Assembly (NCBI GenBank): GCA_025928515.1
Contig: JAICJI010000005.1
Span: 1 to 64,000, forward strand
Reading direction: 5' to 3'
Origin: Thermoleophilia bacterium
GTDB taxonomy: Bacteria > Actinomycetota > Thermoleophilia > Gaiellales > Gaiellaceae
DNA: 64,000 bases
Shown: positions 24,695-32,520 of the stretch, in pieces
Layout of the letters: every line of letters begins with the position of its first letter
Numbering within the stretch: position 1 is the first letter of the stretch
Notes under the pieces: model-generated
What the model was told of the DNA's origin: nothing
The model's database searches: none
The model's input: only the letters and a program-made list of their open reading frames with translations
Translations under genes and position numbers: made by a program

Positions 24695-27732
<3,038 letters not shown>

Positions 27733-27818
27733 CGGGAAGGCAAGTCTAGGCCGAGGCGTTAAGAGCTATTGGGAGCGTGGGTACAGGTCACGCGTTCCCG
27801 CGACACCGAAAGGAAACG

Positions 27819-28130
27819 ATGGCAAACGACGTCACAAACGCCACCTTCGAAAACGAAGTGCTGCAAGCCGACAAGCCGGTGCTCGTGGATTTCTGGGCCG
27901 AGTGGTGCGGGCCCTGCCACGCGGTCGCGCCCGTCCTCGAGCGGATCGCCGACGAGCACGACCTCAAGCTCGTCAAGGTGAACATCGACGAGAACCAGGA
28001 TCTCGCGATGCGCTACGGGATCCAGTCGATCCCGAACATGATGCTCTTCGAGGGCGGCGCGCCCAAGGCCTCCGCCGTCGGCGCCATGCCGAAGGGCATG
28101 CTCGAGCGCCAACTCGGCTTCGAAAGCTAG
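27819..28130 (+). CDS. trx: Thioredoxin
   Basis: The 103-residue thioredoxin fold has active site WCGPC (Cys30, Cys33), a conserved Asp in VLVDFWAEW, and the cis-Pro loop in IQSIPNMMLFEGG. It is a cytoplasmic disulphide reductant. An in-frame start lies 14 codons upstream, but ATG 27819 follows GAAAGGAAAC at good spacing and gives the standard length. It is transcribed divergently from ileS. Confidence 0.95.
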   Translation: MANDVTNATFENEVLQADKPVLVDFWAEWCGPCHAVAPVLERIADEHDLKLVKVNIDENQDLAMRYGIQSIPNMMLFEGGAPKASAVGAMPKGMLERQLGFES

Positions 28131-29773: not shown

Positions 29774-30148
29774 ATGGAGCGGCGCCGAATCTCGTCAGGC
29801 TCCCCGTACGAGCCGGTAATCGGCTTCTCCCGCGCCGTCCGCGTCGGCGAGCACGTCCACGTCTCTGGAACCGCGCCGGTCGGCACCGACTCCGACGACC
29901 CGTACGAGCAGACCAGACGGTGCCTCGAAATCATCCTCGCGGCACTCGCCGAGGCCGACGCAGGGCCCGAAGACGTCGTGCGGACGCGCATCTACGCCAC
30001 GAGCGCAGACGACTACGAGGAAATCGCCCGCGCGCACGGTGAGGTGTTCGGAGCGATCAGGCCTGCGTCCACCTTCATCGTCGTGAGCGGGTTGCTCGAT
30101 CCGCACTGGGTCGTCGAGCTCGAAGCCGACGCGCTCGTATCCGGGTGA
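29774..30148 (+). CDS. RidA family (YjgF/YER057c) enamine/imine deaminase-like protein
   Basis: The 124-residue product has the RidA trimer fold signatures VSGTAPVG near 32-39 and RTRIYATSADDYEEI near 70-84. The closing segment is RPASTFIVVSGLLDPHWVVELEADAL. The Arg that binds carboxylates in active RidA (in R-P-A-x-T) is present. It would hydrolyse reactive enamines from PLP enzymes. Its stop overlaps the GTG of the membrane protein that follows by four bases. Confidence 0.9.
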   Translation: MERRRISSGSPYEPVIGFSRAVRVGEHVHVSGTAPVGTDSDDPYEQTRRCLEIILAALAEADAGPEDVVRTRIYATSADDYEEIARAHGEVFGAIRPASTFIVVSGLLDPHWVVELEADALVSG

Positions 30149-30759
30149 GGCTCGCAACGCTCGCAGGCCTCTACGTCGCCGTCGTCCTCTCGGCGCAGAT
30201 CGGCGCGAACAAGATCGTCCGTCTCCCGTTCACGCACCTCGAGGCGCCCGGCGGTGTCTACTCGATCGGTGTAGCGCTCGCGCTCGTACAGCTTGCGCAT
30301 CACACCGGCGCGACCCGGCGCGACGGCGCGCTCAACGCGCAGCTGCTGATCGGGCTCGGCTTCGTCGGCTCGGCGCTCTTCGCCGGCTACATCGCCCTCG
30401 TCGCCCACTCGCACCCCGCATTCCCGGGTCAGGAGTTCGACAGCGCCGTCGGCTCGACGTGGCGCATCGTCGGCGCCAGCCTCGCCGCTTTCATCGTCTC
30501 GGAGACCGTGGACAACCTTGTCGGCGCGCCTCTGCGCGGACGTGTCCACGACAGCCTGCGAGTGGTCGTCTCGGCCGGAGCGAGCGCGCCGCTCGACAGC
30601 GTCGTCTTCCTCGTCCTCGCCTTCGGCTCGTCGGGCCTGGACTTCTTCGACGGCCAATTGGTGGGCAAGATCGCGTCGTCCGTCGTGATCGGGATTCCGG
30701 TGGTCGTGCTGGGTCGACGGTTTCTTCCTGCAAACAGGCCGGATATCGTTCCCGCATGA
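30145..30759 (+). CDS. VUT-type (DUF165, YhhQ-like) integral membrane protein, possible queuosine-precursor or vitamin uptake
   Basis: The 204-residue product has five or six helices. Segments APGGVYSIGVALALVQLAHHTGA, ASLAAFIVSETVDNLVGAPLRG and APLDSVVFLVLAFGSSGLDFF follow the order seen in VUT/DUF165 transporters, where the aromatic/Asp-rich region near DTxxx is typical. Substrate cannot be read from sequence; the named members move 7-deazaguanine precursors. GTG 30145 overlaps the RidA stop. Its own stop overlaps the next ATG, making a tight operon. Confidence 0.55.
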   Translation: MRLATLAGLYVAVVLSAQIGANKIVRLPFTHLEAPGGVYSIGVALALVQLAHHTGATRRDGALNAQLLIGLGFVGSALFAGYIALVAHSHPAFPGQEFDSAVGSTWRIVGASLAAFIVSETVDNLVGAPLRGRVHDSLRVVVSAGASAPLDSVVFLVLAFGSSGLDFFDGQLVGKIASSVVIGIPVVVLGRRFLPANRPDIVPA

Positions 30760-32048
30760 CCGATTCGCTCATCCCGCCGTCGATCACGGGCAAGGGCTCG
30801 CAGTTCCCGCCGGGCGGCAGCGTGCTCGACCACGCGTTCGGCACGAGCGACCCGTACACGCTCGGCGTAGAGGAGGAATACATGCTCCTCGACAGCGAGA
30901 CCTTCGACCTCGTCCAGCACATCGACACGGTGCTCGCGGCGGTCGCGGGCCACGAGCTCGAGCCGCGCATCAACTCCGAGCTGATGCAGTCGGTGCTCGA
31001 GGTGGCGACGCCGGTCTGCCACACGCCGGCCGGAGTGCAGCAACAGCTCCTCCGCATTCGCCGCTACGTGACCGACGTCGCGCGCGAGCAGGGATTGCGC
31101 GTCGGCTCGGCCGGAACGCATCCGTTCTCGCTCTTCGAGCGCCAGCGCATCACCGCGAAGGACCGCTACCGGCAGATGGTCGATCAGATGCAGTACATCG
31201 CCCGGCGCGAGCTGATCTTCGGGATGCACGTGCACGTCGCCGTCGACGACCCCGAGAAGGCGATCCAGGTCGTGAACGCGTTGATCGCGCACCTCCACGA
31301 GCTCGTCGCGCTCTCGGCGAGCTCCCCGTTCTGGCGAGGCGAGCCGACCGGCCTCCGCTCGTCACGGCACATGGTCTTCGCCGCCTTCCCGCGCTCGGGG
31401 CCACCACCCCGCTTCCGCGACTACGCCGACTACGCCCAGGTCGTGAACCAGCTCGAGAAGACGGGCTGCATCCAGGACTACACGCACATCTGGTGGGACA
31501 TCCGCCTTCATCCCCGCCTCGGCACGATCGAGATCCGGATCTGCGACGCGGTGACGCGGCTCGACGACGTGATCGCGATCACCGCGTACTGCCAGGCGCT
31601 CGTCAAGCACTACGCAGAGCTCGTCGACCGCGGCGAGGAGATCCCGTCGTTCCACCGCATCCTCACGACCGAGAACAAGTGGCTCGCAGCGCGGTACGGG
31701 CTCTCCGCGCCCGTGATGGACCTCCACACGGGGCGGCGCAACAGGCTCCCGGTGGCGGCGGTCGTCCGGCGAACGCTCAAGACGCTCCGGCCACATGCGC
31801 GCGACCTCGGCTCGGAGGAGGAGCTCGCGGGCGTCGAGGAGATCCTGAGCCGCGGCAACGGCGCCGACCGGCAGCTCCACGTCTTCAACGTGCTCAAGGC
31901 TGCAAGTGCCGGCGGCGAAGCCGCCGGCGCGCGGCCGGGAGACCCCGCCTTCGGCGGCCGGGGCGACGTCGTCGAAGTCGTGCGAGCCATCGCCGAGGCG
32001 ACCGAGGTGGCGCCGGTAACGGAGCCCGAACCGGCCGCCGCCGCGTAG
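30756..32048 (+). CDS. Carboxylate-amine ligase, glutamate-cysteine ligase type 2 (YbdK/EgtA-like)
   Basis: The 430-residue product has the GCS2 core: TLGVEEEYMLLD near 34-45 (metal-binding Glu), the RINSELMQSVLEVATPVC segment near 73, GMHVHVAVDD near 158 and HIWWDIRLHPRLGTIEIRICD near 247-267. Homologues ligate glutamate to cysteine or another amine. A run of about 60 residues at the C-terminus is Ala/Pro-rich and extra. The ATG overlaps the preceding stop (ATGA). It is followed after 10 bp by the selenoprotein gene, so thiol or redox metabolism is a plausible shared theme. Confidence 0.88.
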   Translation: MTDSLIPPSITGKGSQFPPGGSVLDHAFGTSDPYTLGVEEEYMLLDSETFDLVQHIDTVLAAVAGHELEPRINSELMQSVLEVATPVCHTPAGVQQQLLRIRRYVTDVAREQGLRVGSAGTHPFSLFERQRITAKDRYRQMVDQMQYIARRELIFGMHVHVAVDDPEKAIQVVNALIAHLHELVALSASSPFWRGEPTGLRSSRHMVFAAFPRSGPPPRFRDYADYAQVVNQLEKTGCIQDYTHIWWDIRLHPRLGTIEIRICDAVTRLDDVIAITAYCQALVKHYAELVDRGEEIPSFHRILTTENKWLAARYGLSAPVMDLHTGRRNRLPVAAVVRRTLKTLRPHARDLGSEEELAGVEEILSRGNGADRQLHVFNVLKAASAGGEAAGARPGDPAFGGRGDVVEVVRAIAEATEVAPVTEPEPAAAA

Positions 32049-32058
32049 CATCGAGTCG

Positions 32059-32520
32059 ATGCTCGAGACCGGAGAGAGAGCGCCGCTCGAGGCGGTCGTC
32101 TGGACGACACCGCGCGAGCGCGCGAGCATCGGCGACCTCCTGCACGATCGGCCGTTGCTTCTCTTGTTCTACCTCTTCGACTGGTCCTCCACCTGAACGA
32201 CCGAGCTCGAGCTCCTGCGTGACAGGAGAGCGGAGCTGCAGGAGACGGGAGTGCAGCCGTTTGCGATCTCGCGCGACTCGCCGTACACGCACGTCGCGTG
32301 GATGCAGGCGCTCGACCTCGACTTCCCGCTCCTCTCCGATTGGAATGCCGAAGCCACGCACGGATTCGGCGTCGCGTTCGAGCACAACGGGATGCGGGAC
32401 GTCTCCCGCCGCAGCGCGTTTCTCGTCGGCGCCGACGGCGTCGTGCGGGGCGCGTGGGCCTACGAGTCGAGCGAGCTGCCCGATCTCGACGAGCTGATCG
32501 CGGCCGCACGGGCCTTGTAG
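32059..32520 (+). CDS. Peroxiredoxin-like (AhpC/TSA) selenoprotein, Sec at codon 46 (TGA)
   Basis: The full frame from ATG 32059 to TAG 32520 encodes 153 residues with one in-frame TGA at 32194-32196. Translation reads FYLFDWSST-U-TTELELLRD. That is the active-site strand of AhpC/TSA proteins, F-x-x-x-T-x-x-C-T-x-E, with the TGA exactly where the peroxidatic Cys sits. Downstream sequence stays in family (PFAISRDSPYTHVAWMQALD, DFPLLSDWNAEATHGFGV, FLVGADGVVRGAW). A SECIS-like hairpin with GU in its loop begins seven bases after the TGA. Reduction of peroxides by a selenenic intermediate is the likely activity. It follows the YbdK-like gene by 10 bp, so it is probably the last gene of that operon. 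Automatic annotation would leave only a 3' fragment from 32251. Confidence 0.88.
32204..32237 (+). promoter_or_regulatory. Bacterial SECIS-like hairpin inside the selenoprotein gene
   Basis: CTCCTG (32212-32217) pairs with CAGGAG (32223-32228) around loop CGTGA, which carries the G-U seen in bacterial SECIS apical loops. A lower stem (32204-32209 with 32231-32237, one bulged G) closes below a 2x2 internal loop. The loop G at 32219 is 22 nt past the TGA, within the usual distance for SelB recruitment. Confidence 0.8.

Follow-up and report, generated by a model that had tools for sequence, protein, structure and literature searches.

The gene and its in-frame TGA

A peroxiredoxin-like reading frame that is interrupted by a TGA raises the question of whether this codon ends the protein or is read as selenocysteine (Sec) and, if it is, what kind of enzyme is made. 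We analysed such a frame in a stretch of 64,000 nucleotides (the window) from a Gaiella-like Thermoleophilia bacterium. Judged from sequence comparisons and a structural model, we predict that the gene is a bona fide selenoprotein gene encoding a one-selenocysteine peroxiredoxin, and we hold this with high confidence. The features of the locus are as follows.

30756..32048, + strand: GCS2/YbdK-type carboxylate-amine (glutamate-cysteine) ligase, upstream neighbour (Pfam GCS2, E=5.7e-60; NF010039 and TIGR02050 over cut-off)
32059..32520, + strand: predicted peroxiredoxin-like selenoprotein gene, 153 aa, Sec at 46, stop TAG (translation with TGA=U)
32194..32196, + strand: TGA (predicted Sec) codon 46, peroxidatic position (alignment with the Cys of the 2cx3 and 4gqc Bcp)
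32204..32237, + strand: bSECIS-type hairpin, conserved upper stem 32212-32217 / 32223-32228, apical loop CGTGA 32218-32222 (fold, frozen codons, pair count)

The frame starts with an ATG at 32059, has its sole in-frame TGA at codon 46 and then runs for 107 codons to a TAG at 32518-32520. With the TGA read as Sec, Pfam AhpC-TSA matched residues 23-130 of the product (E=4.3e-22; 78.8 bits against a gathering score of 26), and alignment to the solved structures of Aeropyrum Bcp/PrxQ (2cx3 and 4gqc) placed residue 46 in their Cys column (SPVCTKEL compared to SSTUTTEL). Translation and Pfam match bear out an earlier note, made from the letters of this DNA, which had described a single in-frame TGA followed by 107 codons with family features. 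The position that it gave for the TGA, the peroxidatic Cys of the AhpC/TSA family, agrees with this alignment and with the existence of Cys homologues among the relatives.

The predicted protein

The AlphaFold model of the protein had a pLDDT of 93.4, and its structure matches were peroxiredoxins, namely Sulfolobus Bcp4 (3hjp, TM 0.92), M. tuberculosis AhpE (4x0x, TM 0.88) and Prx6. The protein keeps two residues of the usual catalytic set, Ser43 and Arg118 (the latter invariant), while the Pro of the PxxxT/SxxC(U) motif is replaced by Leu39; a Leu seven positions before Sec is found in nearly all Sec forms and a Pro in the outgroup. Cysteine is absent from the window protein and from 19 of the 20 Sec forms counted.

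On these sequence features, the protein is most likely a '1-Sec' peroxidase. Since the Sec forms almost always lack Cys, an outside thiol must regenerate them, and the change of the motif Pro to Leu means that full peroxiredoxin activity cannot be assumed. Sec could also be inserted into a protein whose main role is redox relay, sensing or the reduction of thiol conjugates, which differs from the peroxidase in the last step only. Such a role would suit the Leu found in place of the outgroup Pro, the absence of Cys and the co-located GCS2-type ligase; we nevertheless consider it unlikely because the protein retains the peroxiredoxin fold, a peroxidatic Sec, Ser43 and Arg118, and its best structural matches include the one-Cys peroxidases AhpE and Prx6.

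The hairpin downstream of the TGA

The outer stem of the hairpin starts 7 nt past the TGA, and its upper stem (CTCCTG/CAGGAG) carries the loop CGTGA, with an MFE of -18 kcal/mol. Published limits for bSECIS elements are a loop of 3-9 nt, a stem of 4-16 bp, a G in the first two loop positions and a UGA-to-loop distance of 16-37 nt (PMC13188914). The window hairpin, with a distance of 21 nt and the loop CGUGA, lies within them, and the fold agrees with the stem-loop at SelB-type spacing, seven bases past the TGA, that had been proposed from the letters.

The features named in the earlier note are thus real, but as proof of a selenoprotein the hairpin and the open frame by themselves are weak, and we rejected them in that role. 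The fold z-score of the hairpin against shuffles was -1.7, and among all TGAs in the window, 105 of 532 (+ strand) and 120 of 514 (- strand) were followed by a hairpin of the same type (about 20% overall). The chance of 107 open codons at 69% GC was p ~0.12, so that neither feature is beyond chance. Base-pair covariation, also considered as proof of a SECIS element, was set aside as weak: the pair count showed it to be slight because the hairpin sequence is nearly invariant. With hairpin and open frame alone near chance, comparison with relatives had to decide.

Comparison with relatives

What had to be decided was whether the TGA is a true stop, as an ordinary gene caller would see it, or a sequencing error, in which case the locus would hold the remnant of a peroxiredoxin gene or a pair of separate short ORFs, the second perhaps encoding 89 aa from an inner GTG at 32251. 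A hairpin and an open stretch that are not beyond chance leave room for this reading.

One GTDB genome scan gave 27 loci, 22 with a TGA at the aligned codon, four with TGC or TGT and one fragment beginning only after this codon. Strong matches in 399 genomes of the class comprised the TGA form in 72 genomes (about 40 distinct sequences) and a form without a stop in six, all of which have Cys at the codon-46 position at the sequence level. Because dozens of separately assembled genomes share the TGA, sequencing error is excluded in practice; a Cys codon mistaken for TGA, which the earlier note had named as grounds for refutation, was not what the genomes showed. Substitutions in the gene fall mainly at the third positions of codons, before as well as after the TGA, and coding conservation among the relatives compared spans the stretch from the TGA to the inner GTG and continues beyond it, which argues against a stop or a decayed gene.

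Codon use in the hairpin distinguished the two forms further. The hairpin encodes the peptide LLRDR, and its codons in 37 distinct Sec forms were CTC (36/37), CTG (37/37), CGT (34/37), GAC (37/37) and AGG (36/37), while elsewhere in the Sec-form genes CGT and AGG make up 4.0% and 3.7% of the Arg codons, respectively. For this peptide, the six Cys forms mostly have CTG CTG CGC GAC CGC, with CGT in none of the six and AGG in one. Codons at other invariant residues of the Sec genes, e.g. Arg118, are free to vary. The related sequences are not independent and no p-value is attached to these counts; the test lies in how the hairpin codons differ from the other codons of these genes and from the Cys forms. 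By this contrast, they are frozen with TGA only, as expected of a SECIS element embedded in coding sequence, and selection on the hairpin is shown in codon use. A covariance model of the hairpin, built from the Sec sites, scored Sec sites at 53-86 bits (39 bits for the divergent locus L091) and Cys sites at 22-47 bits.

A TGA at one codon in 72 genomes, frozen hairpin codons in the TGA forms and the full Sec machinery described below make a true stop or an error very improbable, and they support the claim that this is a bona fide selenoprotein gene.

Cys forms stood at three separate places among the Sec forms in the tree, and the hairpin codons were released in each. This placement indicates that switches between the two, whether from Sec to Cys or from Cys to Sec, happened more than once, as far as can be told from a rapidly built tree in which many forks are open. 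Two Cys forms (L079 and L080, genomes G141 and G153) have the motif Pro where their Sec relatives have Leu. Three other, closely related Cys forms (L032, L033 and L038) have a second Cys in SCDSP, where the Sec forms have SRDSP; it is possibly a compensating thiol after a switch from Sec to Cys. One genome has a second copy of the gene with an in-frame TAA (G215:C105, 2825-3223), which is probably a broken copy.

Selenocysteine machinery

The earlier note had reasoned that the host must carry SelA, SelB, SelD and tRNA-Sec, and had named their absence as a refutation; all four were found in the genome of the window, which is 79% complete. The tRNA-Sec with anticodon UCA (59.2 bits), selB (349 bits) and selA (518 bits) are on the same contig, and selD (322 bits) is on another. 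Decoding of the TGA as a different amino acid, e.g. Trp, through a code change or suppression is scarcely credible, as nothing specific speaks for it, Cys is the only replacement among relatives, the gene has a conserved SECIS-type hairpin and the genome a tRNA-Sec(UCA), and selA, selB and GCS2 of this genome read normally under table 11. When selenoproteins of the same genome were sought by named families, a formate-dehydrogenase-like gene was seen on contig C10 (L098, about 25113-27953) with an in-frame TGA in ARIUHSS; it scored below the TIGR01591 cut-off and is a probable second selenoprotein gene.

Searches of the 72 genomes with the TGA form detected selB in 50 and one or more of the three genes selB, selA and tRNA-Sec in 59; for the 24 of these that are at least 90% complete, the numbers were 20 and 22, respectively. 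None of selB, selA and tRNA-Sec was found in 13 of the 72, two of which (G091 and G179) are at 91% completeness. These gaps are likely due to incomplete assemblies.

Relation to known peroxiredoxins

Sec-containing peroxiredoxins with a T/SxxU motif (PF00578 / COG1225 Bcp) are already known as selenoproteins, one example being the selenoperoxiredoxin of Eubacterium acidaminophilum (PMC1794560, PMC9312934, PMC13188914). The window protein shares with them the peroxidatic Sec, the AhpC/TSA fold and the SxxU motif (S43-x-x-U46), but it differs in having Leu for the Pro of PxxxT/SxxU, in having no Cys and in its Thermoleophilia host. It scored 43.9 bits against the PrxU equivalog model NF040737, whose cut-off is 270, and no curated NCBIfam model covers the group, all cut-offs being far above its scores. 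On sequence grounds, we regard the group as a new subfamily of the known Sec-containing peroxiredoxins.

AhpE and Prx6 are one-Cys peroxiredoxins. The window protein resembles them in the absence of a resolving Cys and resembles AhpE and archaeal Bcp4 in fold, whereas Sec in place of Cys and Leu in place of the motif Pro set it apart from all three, and identity to AhpE and Bcp4 is about 28-29%. Peroxiredoxin-like selenoproteins with UxxC/UxxU, UGC or UxxS share an AhpC/TSA-type domain with Sec; in these, Sec is followed by another redox residue or by Ser, where the window protein has T-x-E.

Two further kinds of gene were seen. In another family of the class, peroxiredoxin genes with a TGA in FYPLDWTPVU and the motif Pro kept (L087, 2270-2707, and L088, 2054-2491; genomes G004 and G016) look like classical Sec-peroxiredoxins by sequence. 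A divergent peroxiredoxin-like gene has an in-frame TGA in FDFTGS.EGGU-Q, shifted from the usual site (L084, 1847-2338, and L085, 1613-2104; genomes G171 and G177), and possibly represents another group of selenoproteins. Our literature search found no paper on a selenoprotein peroxiredoxin in Thermoleophilia, nor a selenoprotein study of the lineage.

Gene neighbourhood and proposed mechanism

The ligase gene stops 10 nt before the start of the peroxiredoxin gene, and its ATG (30756) overlaps the stop of a Vut_1 transporter gene (30145-30759); a scan for promoters and terminators found none. The order thioredoxin, beta-lactamase-like (opposite strand), RidA-like, GCS2-type ligase and peroxiredoxin is found again in many genomes, whether they have the Sec or the Cys form, the first three labels being given by the look of the sequences. 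The adjacency of the ligase, from which the earlier note had drawn a link to thiol metabolism, therefore holds in many genomes, while the thiol link itself is a lead only. MshC, sought for mycothiol as the resolving thiol, had no match that reached the curated cut-off in 61 genomes.

Given the genes present, SelD would supply selenophosphate, with which SelA would convert Ser-tRNA-Sec to Sec-tRNA-Sec. SelB, docked on the hairpin immediately 3' of UGA46, would then bring the charged tRNA to the UGA. By analogy with the peroxiredoxin family, Sec46, at the start of the long helix of the fold and assisted by Ser43 and Arg118, would attack the peroxide and be oxidized to a selenenic acid. Resolution would come from outside, through a low-molecular-weight thiol or a thioredoxin/mycoredoxin-type protein, and we speculate that the neighbouring ligase may serve the pathway of that thiol. 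A broader proposal, that this is a Cys-free '1-Sec' lineage in which selenium allowed the loss of the near-universal motif Pro and which is regenerated by a dedicated thiol tied to the GCS2-type ligase, is tentative, and we would not expect it to hold in full.

Significance

As this comparison shows, a SECIS element that folding by itself leaves unproven can be proved from codon choice. With its Cys forms at three places among the Sec forms, the family is a natural experiment in which Sec and Cys can be compared cleanly within a single enzyme. The predicted Sec peroxiredoxin gene is common to many uncultured Gaiella-like soil actinobacteria, and annotations likely truncate it across this widespread lineage.
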